Positions 17,301 to 49,300 of a stretch of 64,000 bases of DNA are shown piece by piece. The notes under the pieces are model-generated. The model was not told the DNA's origin, made no database searches, and was given only the letters and a program-made list of their open reading frames with translations. The stretch comes from Asterochloris sp. CNOR1 (taxonomy: Eukaryota; Chlorophyta; Trebouxiophyceae; Trebouxiales; Trebouxiaceae): positions 496,001 through 560,000 of the forward strand of contig OZ017762.1 of assembly GCA_963969365.1 (NCBI GenBank). Direction: 5' to 3'. Both the position numbers and the translations under genes were made by a program. The first letter of the stretch is position 1. Each line of letters opens with the position of its first letter.

Positions 17301-20300
17301 AGAGAGGTCACACAGGTGCCACTGACCCCAGCGCACATCAAAGAAATGTTGCCTTGGCGGGCGGACAGCACCTCAGGCAGCACTGGCACCATCTCGCAGC
17401 AGCTCAGCCCACCTCCAAGATGTTGCCCTGGCTGGTGGACAGGACCCGCAGAATCTTGTCCTCCACCTCCTTGAGGTGCCGCTTGTTCTCAGCGCCTGCC
17501 AGGATGAGGCGGCCCTTTTCTTCTTCCAGCTCGGGGCGCTCCTTGGCCACAACTATGCCCAGCAGCTGGTCCTCCAGGCCCTCACGTGTTGTCATGAAGG
17601 CCAGCAAGGACACCTGCACGGGCATGACCGCTTCTGTGAGGCACAGGGGTCAGTGTTGATTGGCATTTTGGCAAGTGTGGCCACCAAGATGCGCAGCAGG
17701 TCCTCCAGGCCCTCATGTGTGGTCATGAAGGGGCCGCAGGGACACTTGCAGGGGCAAAGACACAGACATGCCGTGTTAGGTTGCAGATTGCGCTGCCTTC
17801 CCTGACTGGGTCTGACTTCTCATCATGCCAGGCCCAGCATACAGGTGAAGATGCCCATATAATATTCCCTGTACGGTATGTGACTTGTTGTTGGTCGTAT
17901 TGGTATTGACCAGGGTGGCTTGCTCAAGTGGGCAACAAGGCGCTGTGCTTGGCAGCAGGAGTTGGTGCTGACCTTTTCTTGAGCATGTGTGTGTGACGAG
18001 GGCGTTCCTGTCAACATGTGTGACGTGCACGGGGTCACAGAAGCTCATTTTGGCACTGCTGAAGGCCCCTGGCGCCCACCTGTGTGCAGAGCTCTGGTGC
18101 GTAGTGGGGGTTCCGCAGCTTGGTAGTGATGTAGAATTTGAACTTCTCACTGTACTCGATGGTGGAGTCACCCAGCCTGATGCACATTGTGCCGCCCTGT
18201 AGTGCCACAAGGACCAGTTGGTAGGCTGTGAGCAAGCAATGCAGAAGCCGGCTGCCCATGCATCAAAGCAGCACAGGCAGCTACAGGGCTCCTTGCCTGT
18301 AGTGAAGCTTATGGCAGTACCAGCTGGAGTCAAGCAGCTGCCACTGCATCTGTGCTGGCATGCATGAGCAACATGGCAAGGAGTTGTACCTGCTTGAAGG
18401 TGTTCTTTTGCAGCAAAGGCTCCAGGGATGCATCTAATGTCTCGCCCACATTCTCCAGAAGCACCGGCTTCCCAAATTGAACGGCATTCTCGAGGGTGCG
18501 GAGGTAGTTACCATCTGTAAGCTTGATGACAATGAGGCCCTCTGCCTTCTCCATGGCCCTGATGAATTTGTTGGCAGTGCCCTGCAGGCCCCGGGAAGGA
18601 GAGTAATCCCATGCCTTTTACATGGAAAACGCCGCATCATGTCCAAGGAGGCAGATCTGAAGCAGAGGCATTGGCGGCAGGCAGGCAGGCTCAGCATGGC
18701 ACATGCCGTGCATGCTACTGCATCAATGCCTACAATAGATGACAGACTGGGCACTCACCTGTGGGTCAATGCAGAGAGGCCAGCGCCGCCCCTGCTCCAT
18801 AGCAATGGCATTTTCTGTGGAGAAATCGTCTTTGGGGAGGCCCCATGCGTTCCACTGCCGGATGGTGACAGGGTTCCCCAGAGCTGCTGGCAGACTGAAC
18901 TTGCTGCTGCAGGGGACGTGAGCAGCTTCACAAGCCTTCACCCAGCTTTCAAGACACTCTGCTCTGTAGACTGATGTGAAGGGACCTGCAGCGCAATCTA
19001 CAGGTGCTGAGCTAAAGCACTGAGGCAGGTTGCTTCCTAGAGTTGCGTATGGGTACACAGGCAGAGGCAGTTGCACTCAACACCACAGCACCTGGCTCAC
19101 CTAGGTAGGCAATCTGGGCCGCAGCCAGCAGCACATCTCCTGTCAGGCGTTGCAGCTGCTGCCCCAGCAGGGCAGCAGCTGCAGTCCAGCGACTCTTCTC
19201 TCCGCCCAGCCCAGAGATCAGCTTCTGCGCCCTGTCCAGCTTGATGCTGCACATGCGCACTTCGGATTCAAGCCTATTCTTCTTAGCCCGCTTCTCGCTG
19301 AGGTCAGCATCCAGCGCTGCCAGTTTGCTGAGCACAGCCTGTACAGCGCAGAGCGAGGGAACGTGAAGCAGGAGGCCTGAGGAAGTACAGCCATGCTGAA
19401 TACATCACGCAATGTAACAATGGCTTTATACAATTTTGCAGCATACCCATGCTGCTGATCACAATCAATGCTCGAATTCAGGTCGCACAGGGGCAGTCAG
19501 CAAAGGGAGTCTTACCACTCAATGTCCCCATCTGCCTGGCCAGCAAGAGCATCAGCAGCAGCAAGACAGTGCATACCTAGGCTGAGCATGCATACCCGTG
19601 GAGTGCTGCTCAAAATGAAATGCAGCAGCACGACCACAAGTGCATGCCTTACCAAAACAGGAGGGCAGTGCCAGCATGGATGCACAATCACAATGCTGGC
19701 TCTCTCACCCTGCTGGGCCTGCATGACCAACAGGTTGCACCACCAAGGCTGTACATGCCAGAGCATGGAAGCCCACCTGGAGCTCCATCTGCTTCCCCCG
19801 CAGAGCCTGCATGACCACGTCCAGCTGCGACTCGCTCTCCGTCAGCTTCTGGCGCTTGGGCTCCACCACCTTGGCCACTCTGTCGTATGCCTCCATTGCG
19901 CGCACCCAGCAGCACAGGCCGTAGGCTGCCTTGCTGACCTGACATGTCGCCAGCACTTAAGTTGGTTGCAATCGCGACGGGACAGCATGACGGCTCGCAG
20001 AGGCAGTAGTAATCAGCCAGAACGGCAGTTGACCAGCATCACTTCATCTTATCAACATACAACTGTGTTGGCAATGCAGCAGCTATTGAGGCTCACAGCC
20101 ATCAACAGGCTGCAGGTCACTGCCTGCTGCACAAGACGCACCGTGAGGACCTTGTTAGGCTCAAACTCAGGGTTGGCAATGAAGGGGCGGATCTTCTGGA
20201 CAGTGGCTGCGGGGATGTGGTCTTTGTCAAAGGTGCGCAGGCTGGTCAGGAAGTCGCTGTCCATGAGCATCTTCTTGGCAGACTGCAGGGGTTGGTGCAG

Positions 20301-23300
20301 GTAGTGAATGTACTGCTATGTTGACGTGGCATCAGGATGCTGCAGATCAGCACACCAACAAGCCAGCGCGATGCGCAGCTTTGGTCTGGCTGGCAAGTTG
20401 CAGAGCCAGACAGGAGCATTGATGCTGCAGGTAGGCAGCGGTCGCAGAGCGTGTGAGTCACAGATATTTTTGAGCGCAGCTCAGCTGCTCGACTGCCAGC
20501 CAGGCCGGGCTGTGCAGTTCAGACACTTTGTAAGCCCACCTGCCATGCACAGTGCACACCCAGCGGGTGGTGCGTCACAGCCTCAGCGTATAGAACAAGA
20601 CGTCACCCCTACCTCCAGCCATAGCCAGTGAATGTGAAACACTACAGTGCCCATGCGCATGCTGCCAAGCCCCACCTCCCAGTAGTCCTCCACCATTTTG
20701 CCGCTGGGGTCCTTCACCCTGGCAGGCTTGATGCCCTTCAGGATGCAGACCGCCTCCAGGACCAGCTTCACGCCGGAGGGGGGGCTCTTCATGCCCTTGA
20801 CTTCTGTGACATCGTTCTTGGTGAGGGTGTCCAGGGCTTTCAGGGCAGACTCCAGCATGGGCATTGCCTCAGAGAGGTCAGCCTCACACTCGTCCTGCAC
20901 AGGGCAGCACCGCCGTTCACCCTCTGAGGCAATCCTGGACTGGTGATCTTAGAGCAGCTTCACATCGGCACAAGGTCTGACTGAGCGGCCTTGTGTACTC
21001 ATCCTGCGGAGTCACAGGGCAACAACATCGTGCAACAACATGTGCAGGACCCAGCAAGTGGGCATTTTCAGGGCAGCGCGTATATTTGGCATGGCCAACC
21101 AGAGGCCCTCCAACATCTTTCTGCACAGAACCAGGAGCGCCGGTCACCCGGGAGACCAAGCACACTCACAAAACATCAAAGATGCCCCACACACTTGTCT
21201 TGCACAGACGCAGCAACACGGCATCCTGCATCAGGCAGGCGCGGGTGACAGTCATCCTGCACAGATGCAGCACCAGCGGGCATCACGCATCAGCCAGGGC
21301 CTGCCTGCGCACCTTGATAGCCTTGACCTTGGCTGCCTCAGCGCTGGCAATGGCCTCCTCCCGCGAGACAACCACCTTGACCTTGTCAGCCTCCTCACTC
21401 TCTTGAGCGATCACCTGCAGACGGCTCACTGGTCTTGAGGTGCTCTCCCAGATATCAGGAACTGGTGCCAAGCATGGGGAGAAGGGAAGGGAATGCAGGG
21501 ACTGCCCACTGCTGCCAGAACCCTTCCCAGAGCAGCAGCAAAAATGCCCTTACCGTCATGGCAGTCTCTGTCTCCACTGTGGAGGCCTCCAGCTGTGGCT
21601 GCAGCGCGATCAACTCCTGCTGCATGGTGGCCACGCTGCTCTCTGTGAAGGCCAGCTTCTCCAGCCCCACCTCATAGCGCTGCTTGGCACCCAGCACCTG
21701 CCAGCCACAGGAAGCCTGCTTGTCAGGCATGCCCCCAGCACATTGCGACAATGTTGAGTGACCCAGCACAACTTTTGCAGCAGCTCACAGGCTTAGTTGC
21801 GGAGAACTGCAAATCGTCTCCCCCAGAGGGAGGAGCCTGCTTGTCACTCCAGCACTTGGCTGCAGTGGGTCTGGATCGTTGTGGTTTGTCTTTTGGATGC
21901 GGTGCCAATGAGCCTGCATCAACCGTCCTGCAGCAGCATCAAGCAGGTAAGTCGTGCATGCAGCAGCAGCCCAGGCCCACCTCGTCCTGCTTCCTGCCCA
22001 GCATCTTTTTGTAGAAGTTGCTGAGCTCCAGGTAGGAGGTGGGTGTAACATAGACGTGACGCCGCTCCTTGGCCAGGAACTTGTCCCCCAGCACCTGGAC
22101 ACTCTCATGGAACAGCACGCACAGCTTGGGAATCTGCTCCAGGATCTGCACAGGGGACAGCACAGTCCACGGCAGCTCTGGCCGGCAAAATTGAGCCCGC
22201 CTTGAAAGCGCTGATGCAGCGGCAGCTCGGCACTGCACCCTGGCCTGGCCTCTCAGCCTGGGAGCAGATGCAGCGGCACACAGTCGGGACAAGGGCTGCC
22301 TTGCGGTCTGCCTTGACACAGCAGAGCAGTAGCAGCCTTGAGCTGGCCAGACTTCTCAGTGAGTAGGCGGACTGGGCATGTCACAGGTCCACCTTAGCCT
22401 CCACACCAGACAGGTCAGCCAAGAATGTGCTGGCCACGCTGTGCAGCGCATTCCTGGGCCAGGCGCTGAACCAGTCAATGGTGGTGCAGTTGACCAGTGC
22501 AGGGAACTTGGTCAGGCGCTCCCGGAAGGCGCTGCCCACCGGGCTGAAGCTCAGCACAATGTGCAGGTTCTTCTTGACCTGCATGCAGTCACCACCTGCT
22601 GCATCGGGCACCGCTGCAGATGGTGTATCCCACATGAAGGGTGTCCTCTGCACATTGCTGTGCACATCGCACCTCACCGGCAAGGCGGTGACGGACTGCA
22701 TGCGTCATGCTGCACCTCAAACAGCCATGCTGCTCAGTGGCTCGCTGCATGGTGCTGCATGGCCTGCATCATATTGCTGGGCCAGCGGTCACTCACACCC
22801 ACGCTGCTCAACTGCTACCTGCCGGCTGCACCAACAACACCCTCACCTGCTGTAGGAAGAAGGCATACATGCTGTCCCGGTTGCCATCCATCCCAGCTTG
22901 CTTGGCCATGGGCCGCATGTTCTCAAAGGCAGAGGCGAGGTCTGCTGGCTGCAGCAGGTTGGGGACCTGCACACAGCTGCGGAGTTCAGTCTAGCATCAG
23001 CTGCTGATGGTCAGCCAGTAGCTGAGCAAGGATGGACGCACACATAGCACTGGTAATGACACTCTCAACTTGATGCTTGCTAGGCCTGACTTAATTTTTG
23101 AGGCTGGACAAGCATCGCTCAGCATACCTCGTAGGTGTTCAGCAAATTGCTGATGTCCTCCACAAATGACTCCAGCTTGATCTGGGTGTCAGTGAAGAGG
23201 AAGACAACCTTTTGGTTGCTCTCACCAGCCATGAGCAGCACCTTCTTCAGGTCCTCACTCCATTCAGCCTGCACAGGGTAGCGTCTCCAGATCAGACAGC

Positions 23301-32300: not shown

Positions 32301-35300
32301 CTGGCCAGGCCACTCCAGGATCCACTTGCTGCGCTCAGTGACAGTGTAGGCGGTCAGCGCCTCTTCCGCCAGCTTGTGCACGGTGCGCCGAATCACGCCC
32401 TCCACCTCATTCAGCCACAGCTCCACGGCTCCCGTGATGTCAGGCTTCACCGGCTCCACCCAGTCCACCTTCTCACCTGCAGGGGCGTGGCATGCGTCTT
32501 GAGGTGCAGGCCCCATCCTTCACAGGAAGCTGAAGCAGTGGGGGATGCCAGAGAAGCTGCAGCCGTTCATGCCGGGCAGGGCTCAGTCCAAGATGTGGCC
32601 GCTTGAGGCCCGCAAACAGAGACCTACACAGTCCAATTTCAAGGCTGCCATCTGGACACAGTTGCTCCACCACGGGCATGCATGCTCCACCCACCTTCGA
32701 CAGAGATCATGCCCGTGATGTCCCCATTGGGCGCAAAGATGAACTCCTTGACAGCCTCAAAGCACTTTTTGACAAAGGGCTGGATGTTGAGGGGGTCCTT
32801 GGCCTCGCTCAGGATCTCCAGCAGCTCGTCGTTGGACAGGAAGAAGAAGCGGGGGAAGGCCATCTTCTTCATGTCCAGCAGGTCGTTCAGGCCACGCTCC
32901 ACCACCTCAAGCTGGGCATTGCAGTGCTGCAGCTGCTCCAGCAGGGATGGCAGCTCGGCCACCTGCAGGGGACAGCAGAGAAGGGGGCTCAGCCACAAAG
33001 CAGCTTCAGCGGCATGACGCGACAAGTGCAAGTGTACAACTGCTCCAGCAGAGACGGCAGCTCTGCACCCTGACAGGTGGAGTGGGGCAAGTCAGCCGCC
33101 TGCGGGGCCTCAGAACGGACGCCCCTTATAGGTTTGACAGGCACAGGCCTGGTGTGGACAGGCACAGGTGCTCCGCAGACAAAGATTGAGGGGCACTGAG
33201 GGCAAAAGCCATGCCAAAGGAGGGCGCATCCAAGGCGGGGGCTGCAACTGCAATGGGCGTGAGGCCTGGCTTGCCTGCAAGATCAGTGGCTGCTCCTTGA
33301 CTGTGGCCATGATGCTCCGCCAGATGGCATCCATGTCCCTGAAGGCCGCCCCTTCCGTAGGGATCTGCCGAATGATCTCATCGGACCCAAAGATGGGCTC
33401 CAGGTAGAGCCACTTGCCCTGCATGGCACACACTGGGCTGTCAAGGCACAGCTGTCACAGGAGGGTGCAAGAGTTGCCCTGCGCCCCAAGCCAGCAGTGC
33501 TGATCTGGCTGCATGCACAGCCGGTGAGGCCCCAGACCGGAAGCATGCCAGGCACAGCGGCATTAGTCAAGCACATCTTGCACAGCAGTGTGAGCGCAGC
33601 TGCTGGGCCGCAGCCTGTGCAGAGGGCCTCCGTCGTGACAATGGCTGCTGGCATGCAGAGCGCCCCAGCTAGGTGGGCGAGCGACGTCTCCCAGCTAAAA
33701 GAGCCAGCAGAGCTAGCAGCACACCACCTTGCTCTGAAACCAATCACATGACAGCAGGACAGCAGTGCGCCTCAGTCAGGCTCACCTGGCACATGAGCCA
33801 CTGCTCCAGAGTGTCTTGCAGCTGCTTGAGCAGGCTGCTCCAGGGCTGTATGTCGCCCTCAAAGGCCTTCCCGAAGGGGCTGGCTGCCATGGCTTGCAGC
33901 TTGACGAGGTGGTCGTCCAGCAGCACCTGAGGGCAGCAGCGGCGAGAAGCTTAGACGTCTGAATACAAAGAGCTGGCGATGGGTGACCCCAGCACATTCC
34001 GCCTCTTGGTGTCCCGATGCGATGAGACAGAGCGGCACTCCCTATGGATGGACAGATGCCGTAGCAGATTAAAGTGCTTGAATCAAAGCTGCTGGGTCCT
34101 GCTTGACTACGTGAGATGGCTCAGCCAGTCTACATGGAAGGAAACGACCGGAGCAAGCTAGCTAGTGCATCCCTGAGCCGATTTATCGCTCGTCGTTTCA
34201 CACCCTGGGCTAATGCCTGGTACCCGTTGCGTAGCACTTTCCATCTTCTGCACCATCTTGTTTGCTGACACTGGCAGCCGGCAAGCTTAGCTGCTGCGGC
34301 ACCTGGCTGGTCCATCCAGTAGGAAGCTACTCATGCACATAGAGCAGCAGCTTAGATGCACTCCCCACCTGGGCTTTGTACACTGGCCCTCCAGGCAGAA
34401 GTTACATGATGGGTGCCTTCTTACTGCTCAAGTAGGCCTAACAGGCCTCATTCACCCACCTGAGCTTCGTCCACTGGGCCTCCGCGCAGGATGTATGTGC
34501 CAGTCGCCTTCCAGTCTGCTAGCTCGAAAGCCAGCCCCTGCCAGTCGGCGTGCATCTTCTCCAGGGCCTTCTCAATGGACCACTCCCTGCTTGCATGCTC
34601 ACTGATCTCAGCGATTTCCTGCAGGCCAGGCATGAGAGTGCTGAGGCGCCTGACCCATTGTCTCCAAGCTGGCATGCCCACTCATCTCAGCAATCCTGCA
34701 GGCCAGGCTTGAAGCCTGTTGAGGCGGTCGACAATCCCTGGACCATTGTCTTGGGGCTGCCACGCTTGCTGACTACAGCAATGTCCTGCAGGCCAGGCCC
34801 ACGATTGCTGGGTCACTGAGTGTCAAAGAGATGCACCACGAGGGACAGGGCACCACTCTGGCTGGCATGCTTGCTGATGTCAGCAATCTCTTGCAGGCTA
34901 AGCCCAAAGGCTGTTGGGTCACTGGTGGCTGCCCAAGTCTCCTTCACTGGGAATGGGTGCCGTGCATTGGTGCAGAGCCACCATGAGAGAATCTAGCGGT
35001 GCTGGAGCTGCCAGCACACAGATAGCTCTTGAGGCAGTGGCGATGTGGCCCGCCATGGGCGCCGGGTCCACACACTGAGCCTCACTATCAGTGAGGGAGT
35101 GCAGCAGCTGTGCTGGCTACTGGGAGGCAGTAGCATTGATACGTTGTGCTCCAAGATGCCGCAGTCCAGCAGCCTCCTCACAGACAGAAGCCCTGAGATG
35201 CGACAGGGTGCCCCAGCAGTCTGTCACCCTGCCGTGCATTTAGATGTGACAATGGACCCCTGCGTGCTCCCACAAAGCACTTTGCTGCCGTGACCAGTCA

Positions 35301-38300
35301 CTTCATGAACTCCTCAACACCATGATCAAGGAGGCAGCTCAATCTGACAAGTCACGGGAGCATTCCAGTGCTGCAGGGTAGCACCATAGCACATCCATGC
35401 AGTACAACATCACGAAGCCTGCTAGCATGGGGCAGGGGGTTGCAGCCATCACCTTGACGTACTCATGGATGCCGTAGTCCAGAAGGCGCCGCAGTGAGGT
35501 GACCTCATCTGGTCGGATCTCAAAGCCCACCACCTCGGCGATCTTCTCCCAGTGGCGCTCGTGCAGCCCCTGGTTGCAGATCGCGCTGATGAGGGGCAGC
35601 ATGTCCTTGAAGCTGGTCACCTTGGACTTGCACTCCTCAGCAATCTTGCTGGCCACCTCACTGGAGGGGTCAGACGCAAAGGTCTGCAGGCAGCCGTGGG
35701 GCACTCGCTTCTGAGAAAACTCGTTGATAATCTTGCCCAATGGCCAAAATGCTGGAGGGGTGTGCACCAGGGTCTGCCGGCATCTGGGTGGGGGTTGAAT
35801 CGCTGTTCAGGCTATGTTTGTTGTTTGCATGCTTCGTCACCAACCCACTCGACCTGGCAGAGCTTTTAAGTCTTGCACATAGCAAAGCCATCAGGCACAT
35901 GATTTTGGCCTGGCAGATGATGTAGCTGCAGAATGTCGCTCGAGTACACAGTGCTGAATATCCAGCTGCAATAGGCCGCTTGAACAGATGCTGCCCACTT
36001 TGTAGCGCTTGCTTGCAGGAAGACGCCCCCATGCTTGACCTACCAGGCGCCTGACAGGTCTCAGAGCTTTGCCTCGTGGTGGGGCTCACATACTGTGTGA
36101 CCTATCTCAGCTCGCGCAAATTGCACACAGCAATCAGACTCAGGATGTTGGGTGCCTGGCGCAGAATGCAGCAGCGCCACTGTGAAGCAGCACCACATAC
36201 CGTGGACTGACCTTGCTGAGCTTATAGATCTTGCGAGCGGCATCAGACACCTCGCTCTCCACGTCCTCAGGGTTCAGTTTGCTGAAGGGTCCCGTCATCC
36301 AGGTGGCATACTTCTCATAGAACCGTGCAGCCAGGGTCCACAGGCCAGCATGCGGCTCCAGCTTCATGTTCATCTTGGCCACCTGCAGACGCAGCCATTT
36401 TGGTGCACTGTCAAGGTAAATGGATGCTCAGCTCCAGCACGCTTGCAGCTCCAGCCTTCATCCCGGCTACCTGCAGGCTCAGTACGTTCTGAGCCATGAG
36501 CAAAATTGTTGCTGCTGTCTGGCATGCAGCACCACCTTCAGCCTGGGCACATCCAAATGCAGCAGCACTCAAGTAAGTTGAGGCTCTACTCTACACATTG
36601 GAGCAGGATTGGGCTTTGGGTACAGTCAGCTGCCCATCAGCAGCAGTGTGTGCCAGGCCTGACGATATTGAGCTGAGAGGGCTGCTGATTCATGTTGTTC
36701 AATCCATTGTTCATCTAACATGAGCATCCTGCCTTGACTGCCTAGCAGGTGCAGACTGTGCCTGCAGCTGGTCAGCAGCCATGGCGGTGGAGCGCTCTGT
36801 ACAGCACATGAGCAGTCAAGAGAGGCCCTGGATCTCACCTGGCCATACTTGGTCGTTGGCCAGCCAAACAGCTTCTCCTGGGTGTTGATCTCCTCAGCCT
36901 CAATGGCGGCCTGCAGGACAGCTGGCTGCTGTTGGTACAGGCCGTGTGGCTGGCAGCAACAATACACAAAACACTAGAGATGAACAATCGGTGATGGAGC
37001 CCCACAGGAGTCTTTGCTACAAGGACTCACTGTCAGATGCTTGTACATGCAACTTGGACCGCCGCAGTAGACAGCAAAGCCTACACTCAACAACACCCAA
37101 CAGGCCCTTGCCTGCTTCAGACCTTCTGCCAGAGCAGTGGGCTGCACAGACTGCCGGCCTGCAACAGCCTTCACTCACAACAAAGCACCCCAGCAGGCCA
37201 CTACCTGCTTCAGGTATTGCAACAGGACAGTGCGTGCATGGCTATCCGGTTCCAAAAGACCTCACAAAGGCCCCTGCAGGGCCTTGCCTGCTTCGGCTGC
37301 TGTGCTGAAGCTGTACTTTGCATATCACAAACCTCCAGCTGGCCACTCACCTGATTTAGCTGGCGGGACAGTGGCCTGCATGGCAATTGCATGATGCTCG
37401 CAGAGAGCCCACCCCCTTGCTGACCCCAGAGCGGTGGCCAACACAGCGCCCTTACCCAAGCGCCACCAAAAGGCACCCCAGCCGATCACTAACCTGCTTC
37501 AGCCGCTCTGACAAATGTAGTCCTGCACAAAGAACACCCAGAGTGCATCCAGAAAGCGTCCTGGCTGGTGACTTACCTGCTTCAGCTGCTCTAAGAGCAC
37601 AGTGGCCTGCGCAGCAATCTCGTCACGCTTGCTCAGCTCCCCGCGCTGGTCATACTTGTCTACCTCGCTCTGGCAGCGATCCAGCAGGTCAGCAAACTGA
37701 CTGCGCCGCTTCTTCAGAGCTGCTTCGAATTCGCGATGCTCTGCAGATATAGTGCACTTCAGAGCTGCTCCATCCCACCCCTTTCCACGGATTTGATTTA
37801 ACTCGCAGTGCTCTGCTGTGTGCCAGGGGATTATGGGCAACGTCAAGCCGCAGGGAGCTGGACCAATAGGAACGCCTGACGGCATGCTGGACGGCAACAG
37901 ATCTCATTGCAAAGGCATGGCTACAGCCATGGACATCTGCCACAGCCAGAGCATATGCTAGTGCTAGCTGCCTTGGCAGCCTTCCAGGCGCATCCCTTAC
38001 CTGAGTTTGCCTTCCCAGAGGCCTCACGCAGGTTGCCAGCAAACTTCCTGGGCCACTCGTAGGCACGCATGGCCACCTCAAAGTCCTCAGTGCTGCCAGT
38101 AAACCTGAACTGTTGCAGGAACGCCTCCCGCTCCTGCAGGCACATACAAAAGTCGAGAGGTGCCACAGCTCCTACCTGAATCCGTCTCAGGAGCAGACAC
38201 CATTGTGCCCCAGCAAAACTTCTGCAGCGCTGCCATGGCTGCACCAACTAGCTGGCAGAAGTGGCCGCCCCTGGTAGCATGTGCAGCCCTCAAGGCTGCC

Positions 38301-41300
38301 AACCAGCTGTCCCATGCACCCACAGCCCACTTTGTTGTGGGCGATCTCGTCCCGCAGGCGGTCTGCCTCTGTCTGGCTCTTGCTGATGTACTTCTTCATT
38401 GCCAGCAACTCCTCGCTTGTGTGGGACACCTGCAGCCAGGCCAGGTCCAGGTGGGCACACTGCTGCAATGCTTCTGACTGGATCACGGCATGCCTGCCTG
38501 CGTCCTTCCCACACAGCACAGGTCCTGGCAGGTGGCTTCAGCCATGCCGCACAGGTCATGGCGCCAGGCAGGTCTGGCTCACAGGTATCAGCTGAGCTTC
38601 ATGCGCATCCATACCCAGCCAGCGTGATGCAGTACAGGTGCAGCCTCAGGCAATGAAGCAGCCTGCAGATGGTTGCCAGATGAAGCTCTGCCTAGGTAGC
38701 TCATTCTTTGCGGCACCGGCATGAAGTGTGGTGCAGCCAAGACTGCAGGCAGGACCTCAGCTGACCTTGCTGAGATCATTTGTCATCTGTGTGTAAGTTT
38801 CGCAGATGCGATCATTGCTCTCGCGAGCAGCTGCTCTGATCAGGTCCAGCAGCTGGGCAGCCGTGCTGTCGGCTGCTGCCATCAGCTGCTGCTTCAAGGA
38901 CGAGCAGCTGACGCAGTACAGGCCAGTGCGCACATGGTCCGTGCTGACCTCACTGCAGCAGGCATCATGCGAGATGTGGGCTACCACCATCAGCTGCTGC
39001 TTCAGGAACATGCAGATCACACAGCACCAGCCGTTGCGACTGTGTTCTCCTCACTGCAGCAGGCAGACAGTGCTATGGCGACCGCTCACATGCCTGCGCA
39101 GAGCCCTCGCAGCTGTCACGCAAAGCCTGCAGATTGTGACAGTCCTGCAGAATTGGAGGAAGAGGCAGTGCAGCCTTGATCATGCAGCATTGAGCAGCCC
39201 TGCAGGAGCATAAAACATGCATGCCAATCTGGGTCGGCTCAGATCACGCTGCCTGTGCAGCCCTGCAGCAGTGCAAAAGCACATGATCTGCATGCAGGCT
39301 GCCACCTCACAGACTGAGCTGACTTACTTGATGCTGTCAGCTGCAGCCCTGCAGCGCTCCAGCTGGTCCCTGACCTCACTGAGCGACACTGCCTGTGCCT
39401 GCTCCGTAAAATTTTGGACGGTGGCCTCTGCTGAGTTGCCCAGCAGGGGCAGGAACTGCTTGTACAGGGACGCCAGCTGCTCAGGAGCTGACTTGTTTGC
39501 ATCTAGCACCTGCGCAGGGGCGTCAGGCCGGCACACTTGGTTCCACGCGTGCTTGTGCTGGGCATTGACTGCAGCCCCATGGCAGCCCTTCCCAGTACAG
39601 CCTGAGCACACATGCTGTCGTACCAGGCAGCCATGCAGCAGGTGTAAGGACCATCCATGCTGTTCATGCAAGCTGCTCAGCATTTGGGCTCATGTACTTC
39701 CACACCCTCTGTCAAGCTGCTGGCCTTGCAACAGGTACCTTTAGGATTGCTGCACGTGCTGCCTGCACTGCCTGGTCCTCCAGGCTCATGCTCTGAATGC
39801 TGGGCTGCACAGCGCCAGTTGTGCCCACAGCTGCAGCCGGAGCACCTGCAGGCAAGATAAATCAAACAGCTGTAGGGCTTCAGGACAGTCCCTCGGGCCT
39901 GCAGCTGATGGTGCATGCTGCTATATTTTGCCTGCCGTTCTCCATGTTCAATCACACCGTCTTCTACACAGCAGGCAAGTAATTGCACAGCGAGTTGATG
40001 ATCTGTGGAGGTGGACTCCCATGTGTTGTTTGCCTTGCCTGGGCATGCCACAGATCTGTTTCTGTATATATCAGCCTGCTGACGACGGCACACCAAGCTA
40101 CCTGGTGGAGGCGCCTCTGTGTTCCCCTGCCTGGGAATGCCGCACACCGCCTTCACAGCCTCCTCCACCGCATTGTCCAGGATCTGCTGCACCTCCTCAA
40201 AGCTGGGTCTGAAGGTGATGCTGCCATTGTCGGCGGCAGGCACCAGTTCCAGCAGGAAAGTGGCCGGCGAGGACCACTTGAGGCGGTCCTGCACTCAACG
40301 TGGCAGGAGTGAGCACCTGATGCCTCTGCGTGAGGGCGCGCACTTGCAGCCAAGGCTGCTGAATCGTGCAGCAGGTGTAAGCGCACAGGCCGAGCTCTTG
40401 AGTTACGGCGAGCATCTTGGAATGCGTAAGCTGCTTAAGCAGAGCGCAAAGTCACAGCTGATGCGCATCTTGGCTACAGGCTGCAGGGCCCTGGCCAGGT
40501 TGCCGACAGGTCATGCGAATCTCACTATGCAACGAACCCTCACTGTGCACAACTGCCCAGGGTTGCAGGTGGCAGCAAGACATTGCGGCCCAGCTCCAGA
40601 TGGCAGAAACATATGCACCTGGTGGGGATCGCATGGCCGCAGCTCTGCATTCTGCTGCAGGCACTGCACCAGGGCGTCCAGGGAGTCCTGTGCCAGCTGG
40701 CGCAGCTGCCTTCCCTGCAACACAAGCAGCATTTATCTTGAAGAAGCAGTGGAAATACAGTCAGCACAAGCCACCAGGGGTTTAGCTGTTGATGCACACC
40801 CTGCAGCAGCTGTAGAAATCGACTCTGCAGTGCATGCTGCAATTGCAGCAGCCCGGCCTGCACTCTGGGCAGCAATGCAGGGGAGCCTGCTGGCAGCAAT
40901 ACCTCAAAGGACGAATGCTGGGGTCGTGCGACAGGGCTTGCACCCAGCAGCCCAGCTGACGACTCTGCTTCGTGCACGGCACACCCCTTTCCCCGCAGAC
41001 CTGGCAGCTCACTGCAAGCATTCAGGGACCTGGCAGAGCAGCACCTGGGGTGGTGCAATGCTTGCAGCTGCTGCATGGCTTGCATGCGCCGCCCTCAGCA
41101 GCAGCAGACCGCGGGCGGGTCCCCCGTGTGCGCAGCAGTCCCACCTGCAGAGTGGCGACACAGCGGTAGTATGCCTCCCGGTCGCCGTTGATGTAGATGG
41201 GGGGCACGCGCCGGAAGGACTCGGTGCACTTGGGCAGCCAGTTGGTCCACAGTGACCCCTTGACCCTGTCAATGCAGTCTGCCTGCCAGGCCTTGAACGC

Positions 41301-43948
41301 CTCTGGCCCCATGGGCAGGGCAGCCAGGAACTCGGGGCTTTGCACGTCCAGCAGTAGCCTGCACAGCAACATGAAGGGTCTCAGCCCGATCTGAGGCCGT
41401 GCAGGCAGACACAAGGGCAAGCCTCTGCTGCTCAAGCTGCCCGTGAAGGCCTGTGTGCTTATGCCATTCATTTGAGGGGTGGTACCTTTGCTGCGCGGTG
41501 GAGCCACACGCTGCCCACGTCGTGCATGCCTCCAGCTAGTCCCCACAACCCATATGCTGGCACGTCAGGACAGTCAGGTTGCAGAGCGCAGTGCATGCTG
41601 TACAGGGCGGTACACTCTTTATGAGAATGTTGGTGCCTCCAACCCGCCGCTGGCTGTCGTGTGCTGGTCATGTGCACATCTGGTTGCAAAGCTGTTGGCC
41701 GCCCACAGCACGCTGTGCTGCTGAGCGCGTCACTGTCCATGGCCTGCTTGCATGATGCAGTGCTTGTTGCACGCGCAGCTGGCTTCCTGGGAAGCCTGTG
41801 ACTGCCTCCTGCCGGCCGCTAGCCGTCTTGTGCTAGCCGTGTGCGCACCTGCTGGCGAAGCCGTGGGCCACCCACAGCATGCTGAGTTCGAGAGCATTGA
41901 CATTCAGGGTCTGCAGCGTCCAAGCTATCTCCTCCCGCGCAGCCGCCACATTCTTGCGCCAATGTGCGGGCAGCTCCTGCAGGGCTCCCATGGCGCGGGC
42001 GGCCTGCTCCACTGATGGCTGGTTGAGCACTGGCGCAATGGCCTCCAGCTTCAGCCTGCAGAGTACAGGCACGATCTAAGAGGATGCAATGGCCAGGCTA
42101 GCTGTCATTTCGCCTCAGCCGAGCCAAGTGGTCTTGGCACTGTAATGCGGCCCAAACAATTCAAGCGGCAGCAGTGAGGAGGCCCCGCCTGCACAGCAGC
42201 AGTGAGGAGCCTCAGCCTGCACAGCAGCAGGCAGTGGCCAGCTATCACACTCAAACTGATGCTCACGACTAGCCTGATGACCGCCAGCTTCAGCCTGCAT
42301 GACAGCAGATCAGCAATGGTTCCCTCAACAGACTAGGATTCCCAGGCCAGTGGCAGAGCATGAGGCTGCCAAGCAGGTTCCTGGCAACAGGAGAGATCAC
42401 TGCTGCATGAGTATTGCCACAGCGTGAGACCGCCAATGTGCACATCATGTTTGGCGGCACCAGGCACTGTGCTGTGACATGTCCGCAGGAGGTCAAGCAT
42501 ACATGCAAGGCCATGCAGGTCAATGCAAGAGCCACCCCTTCCGGGTTGCAGTAGCAGGGCGAGCCTCGCACCTCTGCTGCTCGCTGGGGCTTTTGAGGGC
42601 ATAGTCCAGGATGGCCTTCTTCACAGCGCAGCGGTACTCCATGTGCACCTCCTCTAGGCAGCCATCAACCAGGCCATGGTACAGGCCGCCGGGCATGGGG
42701 CAGCTGCAGAGAAAGACCAGAAGTTCCAGCCAGCACCAGCCAGTGACGTCCTGCAGCACTGCCGGCATGGGCTGTCCAGAAAGGTGGAGGTACAGGCATC
42801 TTGCCGAGCAGGATGAGGCGTCTGCGAGCTCTCCTGACAGGGAGACCCATGCTGTGCAGCACCTTCAATGATCAGCAGCCTGCTTGCAGGCAAGACCCAC
42901 CTGCAGATGAGGGCGCTGTTAAGAGGCAGACTTGGCCAGCAGCACACTCAATCAAGCTGCATGTGCCATAACAGGCCTGAGCACTGCACATGAGGTGCTC
43001 AGCAACCCCTGGCATTCGAAGCGTGCCCGTCTGCTCTCTGAGGCCCTGCACTGGATGCATGAGGTTGCAGAGAGACCTGCAGTCAGGCCAGACATGCCGC
43101 CACTGCAATCAACGCGTGCCAATCTGTCTGCCCACCTGTTCTCTGGGGGCAGCATGGCCAGCGCATTGTGCACCCAGTCCTCGCAAAATGGGGCGATCTC
43201 ACTGTCACTAATGCCGGCACCGGCATAGTGCTGGTAGCGCCTCAATGCCTCAGCTACCTCCTCTGAAGTGAACGACTTGGCACTCTGTGGGCTGTCATTC
43301 TGCTGCTGCCCAGCCTGCAGCCAGTGACATCACTTGGGGGTGCAACTTCTTTTGAGCCTCAAAGGCAGCGCACACATCTAGCTGATCTGACACACTGGGG
43401 AGGCCACACCTGCTGGCTGGTTGTGACGCCGTCACGTGCGCTGGGCCCCTTCAGCAGCCTAGTCCTGGGGCCCGGCATGTGGCCTGACGTGCCACGTGCC
43501 ACAGCAGGCGTCTTGAGAGCCCTGCTGCCGGCATGCACTGGCATCACAGTTGCCCCTTTCTTCTGTGGGGGGCGTACTGGCTCCTGCATGTCCGCATTAT
43601 GCTTAGATCAGGCAAACAGGAGATGCTCGCCCCTGGGCCAAGAGTGGCAGTCTTGCAGGCTGTACCTGCTGCACGCTCTCAAAGAGGCGCCCAGCTGCCT
43701 CTGCAGCGTGGGGTGCATAGTGAGCTGCAATCCGGCTGGATGGGGAGTGGTAGTATGGGTCCGCTCTGTCTCCAAAGGTAGCGGCCTTGGTGAACAGCGA
43801 CCGCTCATTGAGAACAGGGGGCAACTGCGGGCAGCACAATCATCTCAAAAACCTGACAAAATTTGGTGCACAAAGCAGCATAGTGTTGTGGCAGTGCAGC
43901 CTGCACCTGGCCTGCATTCAAGACCGCAGTGACCTGGTCTGCATTTGC
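11363..43948 (-). CDS. DHC: Axonemal dynein heavy chain, inner-arm monomeric type
   Basis: This gene encodes the ATP-driven motor of the ciliary axoneme. Transcribed right to left, the exons give a complete heavy chain: N-terminal tail (about 36-43.9 kb), linker (31.5-35.8 kb), AAA1-AAA4 (22.4-31 kb), stalk with microtubule-binding domain (19.1-21.7 kb), AAA5-AAA6 and the C-terminal domain. AAA1 carries the P-loop [12 protein letters not shown] and Walker B CFDEFNRI, so ATP hydrolysis should be intact. The last exon holds [20 protein letters not shown] and ends [11 protein letters not shown]-stop at 11,363. From memory of the family this ending and the [10 protein letters not shown] segment resemble the DNAH3/7/12 group, which are single-headed inner-arm dyneins; the subtype is inference. 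More than 60 exons span over 32 kb, with introns mostly of 100-300 bp. The exact N-terminus is uncertain: the first clear exon is 43,666-43,824, and 43,853-43,948 is in frame with it only if a 28-nt segment is removed. I see no stop codon inside any conserved exon. Confidence 0.96.
14378..14515 (-). repeat. Duplicated dynein splice acceptor and exon start
   Basis: The real exon begins after the acceptor at about 14,408, coding [11 protein letters not shown]. About 94 bp upstream in the transcript, near 14,472-14,515, a near-identical block repeats the acceptor and the first nine or so codons (AHRNFRL) before diverging. Both acceptors share the context gctgtgctgcag. Confidence 0.75.
17080..17740 (-). 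repeat. Decayed copies of a dynein exon end inside its intron
   Basis: The coding exon at about 17,404-17,625 ends with a segment around [12 protein letters not shown]. Three degenerate versions of that end (plus-strand core ttgcctggctggcgggcagc) lie at about 17,080-17,130, 17,190-17,220 and 17,345-17,385. On the other side, 17,696-17,735 repeats about 38 bp of the start of the same exon (17,567-17,604). Confidence 0.6.
19100..21710 (-). other. Dynein stalk and microtubule-binding domain
   Basis: Coiled coil 1 lies in exons near 21.55-21.7 and 21.32-21.42 kb. The microtubule-binding domain is in exons near 20.68-20.9 kb ([34 protein letters not shown]) and 20.14-20.29 kb. Coiled coil 2 follows at 19.77-19.94 and 19.1-19.34 kb. 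The order matches the antiparallel stalk that inserts between AAA4 and AAA5. Confidence 0.92.
22380..24330 (-). other. Dynein AAA4 module
   Basis: The loop at about 23,588-23,632 reads [17 protein letters not shown], the normal axonemal form in which GKT is replaced by GRQS. The next exons carry [20 protein letters not shown] (Walker B region, 23.13-23.27 kb), [20 protein letters not shown] and [20 protein letters not shown], then [19 protein letters not shown] just before the stalk. Confidence 0.93.
24440..26680 (-). other. Dynein AAA3 module
   Basis: The P-loop at about 26,066-26,117 reads [15 protein letters not shown]. Walker B at about 25,600-25,660 reads [16 protein letters not shown]. 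The exon at 25.19-25.39 kb carries [20 protein letters not shown], the sensor region. AAA3 is the regulatory ATPase site of dynein, and its key residues are intact. Confidence 0.93.
25037..25135. repeat. Intronic tandem repeat, 46-bp period
   Basis: Two nearly identical units beginning ggcaacggc(a/g)gctctgc lie head to tail between dynein AAA3 exons. The period is about 46 bp, and a third unit starts and then diverges. Confidence 0.85.
27200..28610 (-). other. Dynein AAA2 module
   Basis: The nucleotide-binding loop near 28,462-28,505 reads [18 protein letters not shown], so the Lys and Thr of the P-loop are kept but the Gly before Lys is Met. Walker B lies near 27,900-27,960 ([19 protein letters not shown]), followed by [18 protein letters not shown] and [17 protein letters not shown]2 binds but does not normally hydrolyse ATP in dyneins. 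Confidence 0.9.
28905..29150. repeat. Intronic direct duplication of about 150 bp
   Basis: The block near 28,922-28,990 recurs diverged at 29,072-29,140. Shared cores are aatgataaggccttcgtccc versus aatgacgagggctttgccct, each followed by a similar ctggcct...cagttgctgctca stretch. It lies in the intron between the dynein AAA1 and AAA2 exons and shows no coding signal. Confidence 0.65.
29190..31060 (-). other. Dynein AAA1 module (main ATPase site)
   Basis: The P-loop exon lies at about 30,767-30,858 and reads [17 protein letters not shown]. It is followed by the exon with [20 protein letters not shown] near 30.6-30.7 kb, then Walker B ([17 protein letters not shown]) near 30,400-30,470, and the exon with [20 protein letters not shown] near 30.1-30.26 kb. 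Every catalytic residue I know for AAA1 is present, so this is the principal hydrolysis site. Confidence 0.95.
34600..34900 (-). repeat. Four tandem copies of a dynein intron-exon acceptor
   Basis: The exon coding [15 protein letters not shown] begins near 34,640. Its acceptor and first codons (plus-strand core cagcgatttcctgcaggcca) recur in decayed form at about 34,680-34,705, 34,775-34,800 and 34,875-34,905, at intervals of roughly 80-100 bp. All copies retain the catgct...tcagcaat...ctgcagg order. Confidence 0.7.
35130..35200 (-). repeat. Decayed copy of a dynein exon end
   Basis: Read on the minus strand, this block gives [13 protein letters not shown]. It mirrors [13 protein letters not shown] at the end of the real exon (about 35,455-35,500), which lies about 320 bp upstream in the transcript. 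Confidence 0.65.
37090..37600 (-). repeat. Tandem copies of a dynein exon end and splice donor
   Basis: The exon ending LLEQLKQ has its donor at about 37,575-37,580 (plus-strand cttacctgcttcagctgctc). Similar donor-plus-exon-end blocks (cctgcttcag followed by g/c-rich text and cagtg) recur near 37,100, 37,205, 37,285, 37,350 and 37,490, degenerating with distance. Confidence 0.6.
38870..39075. repeat. Intronic tandem duplication of about 110 bp
   Basis: Two adjacent units begin catcagctgctgcttca(a/g)ga and end cctcactgcagcaggca. They lie next to the exon coding [20 protein letters not shown], and the first unit overlaps its splice acceptor region. Confidence 0.7.
41580..41900 (-). repeat. 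Duplicated dynein exon end plus donor
   Basis: Plus-strand blocks near 41,645-41,725 and 41,810-41,895 share about 80 bp (ccgccgctggctgtcgtgtg versus ccggccgctagccgtcttgt, then ggcc(g/a)cccacagca(c/t)gct). The second is the real exon end coding [12 protein letters not shown] with its donor. The first is a decayed copy inside the intron. Confidence 0.7.
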
Positions 43949-46373: not shown

Positions 46374-49300
46374 CTAAACCTCTGCCACGTCGTCATCAGA
46401 GGTCTCCACCGGCTGCTGGTGCCGCTGGACAACAGTCTGTGCGACCTGCTCAGCAGCACCAGCCTCCTGGTTGGTTGCCGACTGCTGGGCAGCCTGCTGG
46501 GCTGCATTCACCTGCTCGTGTGCAGCTTTCTGGGCTGCCTTGCCCTCAACCCCTGCAATCTCCATGCCAATGGGGTCGGGCAGGTCTGGGGTCATCTGGG
46601 ACTGCTTCAGGTAGATGTCTGTGTGGTTGATGCCCGTGTAGATGTCGCGGCTATGGCACTTGGCAAACTCGATCTCGGGGCAGCACATCATCAGTGCCTT
46701 GGGAGGGGAGAAGCTCCACTCCAGAGGGTTGTTGACAGCTGTCTGCCAGGGCTCCAGCGGGATCCAGTCGACATGAGAGCCGTACCTGCAAGCATGACAT
46801 GTCCTCTGCTGCCTGCCAAACATCCAAGGCGCCGAGAGCAGCGCGTGGGGAGCGGAGGGTTGACACACTGGGAGGCCCCAGCATCCTGCAGCAACTAGCC
46901 ACAAAGCCATCCACCAAGCAATCTCAATTAGGCCGGCAAGCAGAGCAGCCATGTGCATTCAGGTCACAAGCCTCCCCCAAGCCTTCTCCTAGCCAGGGCG
47001 TTCACAGATGGTGGCTCTCGCTGGCTTGGACTAGCTGACTCACACTACAGACCCCCCCCTCCCTCCCTTCTCCTTGTTCCTGCACAGCAAGCAAGATCCA
47101 GCGAGGCCCATGCCCCCCCATCCCCCCTGGCCCCCGAGCAGCCAGCCATCCAGTTGACCCCTCTAGCCTATATACTCACAAGTTGTGATTCCAGCTGGCA
47201 GGGACGTAGCTGACCCGCACAGCTGGGTCCATGACCATCTTGCTGTGCCCCAGCCTGAGATAGTCCTCACAGAAGTAGCTGATCTCCGAGGCCTGGCACT
47301 CGGCTGGGTTCACCTGGTCCCTGCAGGCCCACAGCAGCGCATTCAGCACACACGCCAGGACGCAGACGGTCACCACAGGTGCACAGCCACTTTCAGCAGC
47401 GGGCTCAGCTAGGTATAGCTGGTCCTGCAGGCAGCAGTTACGGCCTTTGCATCCCTTGCTGGCCAGCACCGCTGTGTTGCTGATCCCTGTGGCCTGGCGC
47501 TCTGCCGGGCTGATCTGGTCTTGGCAGGCTCTCACCCACCTACAGCGATGCACTCAGCAGGACGCAGCAAGAGAGTACAAGGCACCCAGCCGCTTTTCCC
47601 TGCGTTGCATGCAGCAGCTTGAACCAGGCCCCTGCAGAAGCACAACCGCTGTCAGCAGCACATGCAGCAGGCGACAGCAGGTCCTTGAAGGAACATTGCC
47701 ACAGTGAGCAGTGCAATTTCAAGGACAATAAGGTAAGCCCACAATTGTATTGAACAGCTGTCCCTGGCCAAGCCCAGCTGTTCCCAGCAGCGCACTTCAA
47801 TCCCCTTGCATCCAGGAGACTGCAGCAGCTCCTGGCAGCAGCCTCCACAACACGCACCTGAACCTGATGCCGCCATACTGCACAGGTCTTGCGTCGAAGA
47901 CGGCCAGCCCATTCCAGCAGCACTTGATAGGAATGGGCAGGCCGCGGGACAGCCTGAGCACGGAGTAGGCGTGATTCACATAGGGCGCCAGATTGGCCAT
48001 AGCTATGCCTTCAGCATCTCTGGCCACCCTGCAGTACAGCAGGCCCTGTGTAATGGAGACTTACATGCTGGGCAGGACTTTGCTAGCCTGCACACAAGAT
48101 TCACTGAAAAGCTCTGATGCATCAGACAAGCACAAGTGATGCGCAGCAGGCCAGCCAGGTATGAGTGGCTGCTGGCAAGGGGAGCAAGGGCAGTCATTTG
48201 TGTTTGACGGGGTCAGGGTCAGAGTGAGGGCTGGTGAAACCCAATAACATGGATGCGGAGCGGGCGACGTTGAGTGACAGCCGCCAGCCGGGGCAGCCAA
48301 CAAGAGCAGCAGTGTCCAGCAGGACAAGCAAGGCAGAGACAGATGCGAGTGTGGTGTGAACACAAGCCTCACCAGACATCATAGAAGGCGTAGTTCAGCT
48401 TGCTGAACTCGCGGCCGTCCTGCAAGGGCACTCAGTGTCAGAACACTTGCAGGCAGCTGTGCCAAGCGGCAGCTCCAGCATCAGCAAGCACACCAGCAGG
48501 TCTGTAAGCTCTAAGCTGAGCCTGATCTGAGCACAGCTGTCAGTCTGCTGGTCAAACACTAGGGCATTGCCAGCCACGCTGCGCAAAAAACCAAAAATTG
48601 CAGCCCAGAACATCAGGCAGGCTGCCTGGAAGTGCAGTGCTTGACAGTGAAACAGCTGATTGATTGAGCAGAATTGGCTCGCACTATCTGATGCGGAACC
48701 GCTTCCATGACTGCATCGTCTCACTCAGACTCTGCACAGCCACCACACCAGCACACAGCAACTATGGGCGCACTGACCGTCATGTAGGGTCCCTCATTGC
48801 CATAGGGTTTGACCCAGTGGGTGCCTGGCATGCCCTCTGAGTGCGTCTCTGCGAAGTCCATGCCGCAGGCCATGTTGGCATCGTGCAGCAGCAGGCGCTT
48901 CACATGCTGGGCGCAGAAGAAGACATCGTTGGCAAAAATGATCTTCTTGAAGGGGACCTTGTGCACAGGCCCCCCCGGCAGCAGAGGCTCCAGCACTGCA
49001 TTTCGGACTTTCACCAGGAAGCCTGCAACACAGAGCATGAATGGTGCCTATTAGAAAAGATGGATTCTGGGAGGTTCCGGCTCTGTTCAGGCAGCTGTGC
49101 GTCCAGCGTGAGTTCAAGAGGCTACTGCTCTGCGGAAGGACACTACGCTGAAGTAACGGTAAGTATGGCAATCCCCGTCAGGGGCAGTGTAGAGCTCTGC
49201 AGGCACCTACCGATGCGAATCTCCTCTGTCCGCCTTTGGATGGACCCTGCACCAGAGGAGCCGGTGTGAGGCATGCTGCTTGGGCCCTGGCAGGGCTGCA

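Follow-up and report, generated by a model that had tools for sequence, protein, structure and literature searches.

Decayed tandem copies of splice junctions in introns of the green alga Asterochloris sp. CNOR1, in a dynein heavy chain gene and across the sampled genome

The stretch of DNA analysed here (the window; 64 kb, C17:496001-560000) belongs to the genome of Asterochloris sp. CNOR1 (56.4 Mb, 21 contigs), and its predicted minus-strand exons chain into a continuous dynein heavy chain gene, one intron of which holds a tandem array of decayed copies of its own acceptor junction; all positions below are those of the window unless another block is named. The 381 residues around this focal junction match chain 8glv_Kg over their full length (1.9e-167), the dynein protein carries Pfam DHC_N2 (2.9e-82), and exons near 43.7 kb match positions 77-130 of the same chain, 8glv being a Chlamydomonas axoneme. 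Exons and splice sites were predicted from the genome sequence with a self-written exon-chaining gene finder, trained on that sequence; exons picked by eye served as its seeds, and its initial splice matrices, which included hand-typed generic strings, were replaced at retraining.

The live dynein exon at the focal junction (34460-34618, minus strand), identified by the gene model, an open frame and the 8glv_Kg alignment, has the acceptor CTGCAG/GAA (the slash marks the junction), which is unit 1 of the array. Upstream of it in the gene, the modelled 834-nt intron (34619-35452, minus strand) holds three decayed acceptor copies on the same strand: copy 2 at 34662-34726 (shift 78; AG retained at 34695; acceptor score 6.9), copy 3 at 34739-34810 (shift 167; AG retained at 34785; score 8.3 against 8.0 for the live acceptor) and copy 4 at 34852-34903 (shift 272), where CTGCAG has become CTGCAAG. 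In gene order the intron thus presents copy 4, copy 3, copy 2 and, last, the live junction; in each unit the acceptor is flanked by intron end (about 13-30 nt) and by exon start (36-43 nt), and CTGCAG/G is retained in copies 2 and 3. A generic repeat search found direct repeats at 34589, 34668, 34756 and 34861 (spacing 79, 88 and 105), with a weak fifth match at 35284, while Tandem Repeats Finder gave no row at 34600-34900, presumably because the copies are too diverged. An earlier note on this DNA, made from the sequence alone, had described four decayed copies at 34600-34900; four tandem units are indeed present, but three are decayed and one is live, and the array slightly exceeds those coordinates. 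The donor junction of the live focal exon is likewise copied, in decayed form, in the following intron (34359-34420, minus strand, shift 91).

Three matches in the focal intron scored at least 20, the best reaching 38.3, whereas the maximum over 1000 dinucleotide shuffles of the intron was 23.3 and a single shuffle reached 20, so that the tandem repeats of acceptor plus exon start stand clear of the shuffled controls that the earlier note had proposed as a check. Masking of the query at the splice consensus and at all CTGCAG sites (cut-off score 17) left two focal copies (21.0 and 19.5), while the third was lost; since two survive, the array is not explained by generic CTGCAG content. The array region gave a single match in the 56.4-Mb genome, with no dispersed copies, in a search that skips very common words, and a dispersed element was rejected because the array has this one genomic place.

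The frame from 34618 is open, whereas the acceptor of copy 2 leads to a stop at codon 3 and that of copy 3 to a stop at codon 33, in keeping with the earlier proposal that the outermost copy, here the exon-proximal one, alone still codes. Moreover, the 8glv_Kg alignment passes the focal junction without a gap, and the protein would therefore use the exon-proximal acceptor at 34618. The order in which the units arose appears less simple than had been supposed. Similarity is 0.78 between the live unit and copy 2 and 0.75 between copies 3 and 4, with cross pairs at 0.62-0.70; strict serial growth, in which the farthest copy would be the oldest, is unsupported by these pairwise values, and a first duplication followed by two separate later ones, one per half of the array, fits better. 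At one site, copy 4 encodes D where the live exon has E; 8glv_Kg also has D, and copy 4 may here keep the older residue.

Junction copies were then sought in 314 kb of genome, consisting of the window and five 50 kb blocks (on contigs C1, C2, C3, C6 and C10); GC content is about 0.57-0.59 in the window and in the sampled stretches of C1, C3, C6 and C10. Each query, limited to 70 nt of exon and 30 nt of intron, was compared with the adjacent intron (near side) and, as a control, the identical query was compared with the intron across the exon (far side). For the window, where the set held 104 predicted exons, 8 of them hand-added despite a low coding score, 14/94 acceptors matched the upstream intron at p<=0.01 (far-side control, 0/86) and 12/94 donors matched the downstream intron (1/86), upholding the suggestion that two genes of the window carry related copies in six or more other introns. 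Four of the 50 kb blocks outside the window behaved likewise at z>4, with near-side matches for 14/139 acceptors and 15/139 donors, far-side matches for 1/139 of each, and none for reverse-complement queries on the near side (0/139 acceptors, 0/139 donors). Throughout the 314 kb, exons were retained when their coding score was at least 6 and a neighbour lay within 1500 nt (291 of 317, the remainder being excluded before junctions were counted), which yielded 562 testable junctions; 53 of these junctions (30 acceptors and 23 donors) carried a total of 74 copies, against 2 far-side matches.

It could be argued that chance or generic CTGCAG-rich sequence produces such matches, CTGCAG being the dominant acceptor sequence and frequent in introns, and the earlier note had itself named CTGCAG low complexity as an explanation that would undo its claim. 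After masking of the consensus and of CTGCAG, 39/562 junctions still matched on the near side against 2 on the far side, and this, together with the shuffles of the focal intron and the reverse-complement control, leaves that explanation a negligible probability. A minisatellite or low-complexity tract was likewise rejected, on the missing Tandem Repeats Finder row and on the signal that survives masking. The junction copies are real, statistically strong and more widespread than the dynein intron; their mechanism is ordinary and their extent unusual.

The geometry of the copies was consistent over the survey, in that 70 of the 74 matches reach 3 nt or more into both the exon and the intron, with a median exon part of 43 nt and a median intron part of 18.5 nt. 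The shift between junction and copy had a median of 164 nt (quartiles 101 and 274, 95th percentile 522); outside the focal array many copies are single or lie farther off, and not all are directly adjacent. Matches on both sides, displaced by such a shift, are the trace expected of a duplicated unit that lay over the junction. Introns with copies had a median length of 531 nt against 310 nt for those without, and the share with copies rose from 0/18 below 150 nt and 1/72 at 150-300 nt to 8/54 at 300-450 nt and 29/80 at 450-900 nt. The stretch from junction to farthest copy amounts to 8.4% of the 87,466 nt of intron, which is a lower bound for growth.

Analysis of the exon parts further revealed how the copies have aged. 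Mismatch against the live exon was 20.3% at the first codon position, 20.5% at the second and 28.8% at the third, positions 1 and 2 being alike (p=0.96) and position 3 higher (p=5e-6); a gap lies within the exon part in 53/74 copies, with a net frameshift in 37/74. This codon-position pattern indicates that the copies drift as non-coding DNA. The 12 arrays with at least two copies contained 44 sites at which the copies agree with one another against the live exon, distributed 10/6/28 over positions 1/2/3 (excess at position 3, p=4e-5), whereas differences confined to a single copy were flat (65/62/60). The shared differences are mostly synonymous changes of the live exon itself, which makes the copies fossils of an older exon. 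On another reading the copies served, or still serve, as alternative exon starts coding for variants; the earlier note had raised exon variants as a possibility, and a permissive run of the gene finder calls parts of copies 3 and 4 as exons. Against this reading stand the like mismatch at the first two codon positions, the net frameshift in half of the copies and the stops in the focal copies, and we regard it as very improbable.

Many of the copies would nevertheless look acceptable to a splice-site model. Acceptor copies at or above the 5th percentile of the predicted real sites numbered 31/42 and donor copies 14/29, in a comparison in which the real-site scores include training sites, and at the focal array copy 3 scores slightly above the live acceptor. 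AG was kept in 31/42 acceptor copies and GT in 20/29 donor copies, whereas the remaining dinucleotides in the matches were kept at 57%; the retention of AG and GT is biased upward because the consensus helps the alignment. The copies are thus possible candidates for decoy splice sites, as predicted from sequence. A stronger proposal would hold that they have been retained as decoy or poison sites which lower or regulate productive splicing, and the splice scores, the retained dinucleotides and the premature stops that follow the acceptors of copies 2 and 3 all lend themselves to it. However, the matches contain the consensus, which inflates retention; with exon-only queries an AG lay near the projected junction in 12/14 cases and a GT in 8/13, in wide windows and few cases; and TGCAGG occurs equally often in the sense and antisense of introns (245 and 245), which gives no clear sign of selection for or against copies. 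We consider retention for such a role quite unlikely.

Two observations on the acceptor sequence itself may be recorded. Among the predicted minus-strand acceptors of the window (3991-54225), CTGCAG/G is dominant, far above the usual YAG, and the copies inherit this strong signal. In the 42 acceptor copies, position -1 (the last G) was matched at 0.76, positions -4 to -2 and 0 at 0.93-0.98; this dip, noticed after the fact, might reflect loss of decoy sites or chance. Selection against decoys is not claimed, AG being kept above other dinucleotides and the strand counts being flat despite the dip at position -1.

Local repeats also occur away from junctions. When each 100-nt tile was compared with the 600 nt that follow it, 223/6190 tiles matched, against 8 for random distant targets, and the 160 merged local repeat pairs of the 314 kb included 53 intron-intron, 44 intron-junction and 12 exon-intron pairs and 44 in unassigned DNA; the pairs outside junctions indicate that tandem duplication is general. 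Copies were nonetheless commoner at junctions: with 60-nt windows, which overlap so that single events are counted repeatedly, 19/275 (centre 0) and 21/278 (centre +15) acceptor windows and 14/275 and 16/279 donor windows carried copies, against 26/1026 and 29/1026 deep-intron windows. Copies were thus 1.8-3.0 times as frequent at junctions as at the deep-intron baseline.

Given copies, a junction-straddling geometry, non-coding decay and a spread over the sampled genome that are all established by direct observation, we consider it probable (at roughly 0.8) that the copies stem from local tandem duplications of about 100 nt, mostly old, some of which lay over splice junctions, with the exon-proximal site kept. 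Such duplications would have hit the genome at many places, mostly long ago. Where a unit lay over a splice junction, the intron would gain a second copy of the edge together with a few dozen nucleotides of exon; if the exon-proximal site stayed in use, the protein would be unchanged. Selection would then hold the live exon while the displaced copy decayed as intron, and repeated rounds at one junction would build an array such as that at 34.6-34.9 kb. Tandem DNA duplication as the origin of each copy and use of the exon-proximal site in the cell are both inferred from sequence, and the process appears to have been more active in the past than now.

Several points weigh against this reading. 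The exons and splice sites are predictions of a home-made gene finder, and the evidence comes from one genome. Longer introns also give more space for matches, although far-side controls in such introns were near zero. Simulations on invented settings (units around 100 in length and 0.12 indels per substitution, with the exon rate set to 0, 0.3 or 0.6 in the first junction-ratio simulation and to 0.3 alone in the age and later ratio simulations) put the junction ratio of a uniform, constant-rate process at 1.0-1.4, below the observed excess. A uniform model with ages of 0.15-0.4 substitutions per site predicted 2.0-2.3, so that it fits only with old ages, from a range picked after the data had been seen. 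Young copies are scarce, 11/74 junction copies and 10/81 non-coding pairs having a substitution identity of at least 0.85 where the constant-rate simulation expects 52% and 49%. Constant-rate duplication is rejected by this scarcity, unless young copies were lost or collapsed in the assembly; a past wave, or the disappearance of young copies through selection or through collapse in the assembly, must therefore be added to the reading.

The same figures bear on an alternative in which junctions are preferred targets, either because duplication starts at or near them or because selection favours events that span them, and introns grow by copying of their edges. The excess over the constant-rate uniform model speaks for it, whereas tandem pairs free of junctions are at least as common as those that involve them (53 intron-intron and 44 unassigned against 44 intron-junction), and old ages, suggested independently by the scarcity of young copies, reproduce the observed ratio once the exon arm of a pair is conserved. 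As the assumption of an old wave covers both the junction excess and the lack of young copies, targeting is not needed, and we judge it unlikely. The earlier proposal that introns lengthen by tandem duplication of their junctions is accordingly upheld for its tandem, junction-straddling geometry, but the part that makes the junction the thing duplicated is unsupported.

As a separate observation, the non-coding DNA sampled (the window and C1, C2, C3, C6 and C10) is everywhere rich in local tandem repeats of about 100 nt, of which very few are young; this could mean that an episode of duplication has come to a close, or that young repeats were lost or collapsed in assembly. The C6 block (L012-L016) also holds a larger duplication, shifted by about 605 with an identity of 0.82-0.86, whose two parts lie at about 35152-35471 and 35757-36093 of the joined block; it includes a predicted exon and intron and represents a tandem segment duplication within or between genes.

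A stricter catalogue of the window comprised 26 copies at 18 junctions, of which 25 copies at 17 junctions lie on the minus strand; the remaining copy belongs to a plus-strand gene model that is itself doubtful. Judged by their positions, 14 minus-strand junctions of the 17 fall in the dynein gene and the rest in the stretches of three further minus-strand genes, which encode a ketoacyl synthase, a CAP59-type transferase and a cyclic-nucleotide phosphodiesterase. Besides those of the focal exon, the following features were recorded, all on the minus strand. Single decayed acceptor copies were found for the exons at 9127-9373 (copy at 9425-9494, shift 91), 14172-14408 (14470-14514, shift 92, substitution identity 0.93), 17413-17613 (17678-17756, shift 132), 32695-32962 (33027-33081, shift 109), 35453-35683 (35729-35804, shift 95), 36212-36382 (36422-36482, shift 88), 38766-38952 (38991-39065, shift 101), 47180-47320 (47476-47546, shift 199) and 52568-52662 (52740-52781, shift 92). 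An acceptor copy of exon 41849-42055 lies at 42268-42299, and the exon starting at 20894 has two decayed acceptor copies within 21060-21274 (21060-21149 and 21199-21274). Decayed donor copies comprised three for exon 17413-17613 within 16834-17372 (17329-17372, 17052-17112 and 16834-16914); one for exon 19777-19890 (19669-19729, shift 88); four for exon 37577-37740 within 37107-37529 (37466-37529, 37326-37410, 37182-37246 and 37107-37149); and one for exon 41849-42055 (41650-41726, shift 169). The window also contains a run of N (translated as X) at about 57.6-57.9 kb.

Earlier work on internal gene duplication reportedly describes frequent internal duplication, duplication of whole introns and the origin of new introns. 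The copies described here are likewise duplicated gene segments with exon and intron parts, and their visible outcome is longer introns with decayed exon edges. Searches of the open-licence PMC literature turned up isolated instances in which a junction-spanning or an AGGT segment was duplicated, and nothing of comparable extent. In a potato RdRp gene, a single recent tandem duplication, taking in the end of an intron and the start of the exon, gave a new intron (Ma, Lan and Niu 2016, PMC4974935). The first step, a junction-spanning tandem duplication, is the same; here, in contrast, many old and silent copies lie within existing introns, on acceptor and donor sides, at 53/562 junctions. For the focal array, a new intron of the potato type between copies was rejected, the protein running gap-free over the junction and copies 2 and 3 hitting stops. 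The Rogers 1989 model derives intron gain from the tandem duplication of an exonic AGGT segment (PMC4974935, PMC2891723); it shares a local tandem duplicate that is spliced out with the protein unchanged, whereas here it is an existing intron that becomes longer, by a unit lying over its junction. Intron gain of the Rogers type was rejected because 70 of the 74 matches hold intron as well as exon sequence. Small tandem duplications also arise from the repair of breaks with 3' overhangs, as new events in mouse and human cells (PMC8355091); such repair is a possible source of units like those seen here, where old products alone are present. Introners are dispersed families that create new introns, often in green algae, with episodic change in intron content (PMC9860276); the episodic change is a likeness, whereas the present copies are local and locus-specific, as the single genomic match of the focal array illustrates. 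The published Asterochloris genome is given as 56 Mb, with a GC content of 56-62% over 98% and 9 introns per gene (PMC6652019).

Intron length varies widely among lineages, and the fast decay of introns usually erases the traces of its mutational source. An exon held by selection is a fixed reference, however, against which old duplications remain visible, and intron growth by tandem duplication can thereby be counted within one genome. The importance of the finding lies in its genome-wide extent; a lone dynein intron would be minor. The claim of unusual extent concerns the one genome sampled. We put forward, tentatively and as a possibility somewhat short of probable, that tandem duplications of about 100 nt, arising in a past wave over the whole genome, were a main source of intron length in this lineage, leaving fossils of exon edges at about one in ten junctions together with strong decoy sites. 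If this is true, the decoy sites must be ignored by the spliceosome or lower productive splicing, and the fossil exon edges would allow earlier codon changes to be traced within one genome. Near-identical sites about 100 nt apart offer natural tests of splicing choice, and decayed copies that agree among themselves serve as an internal outgroup that reveals synonymous changes of the live exon. If relatives show the same pattern, the wave could be dated.
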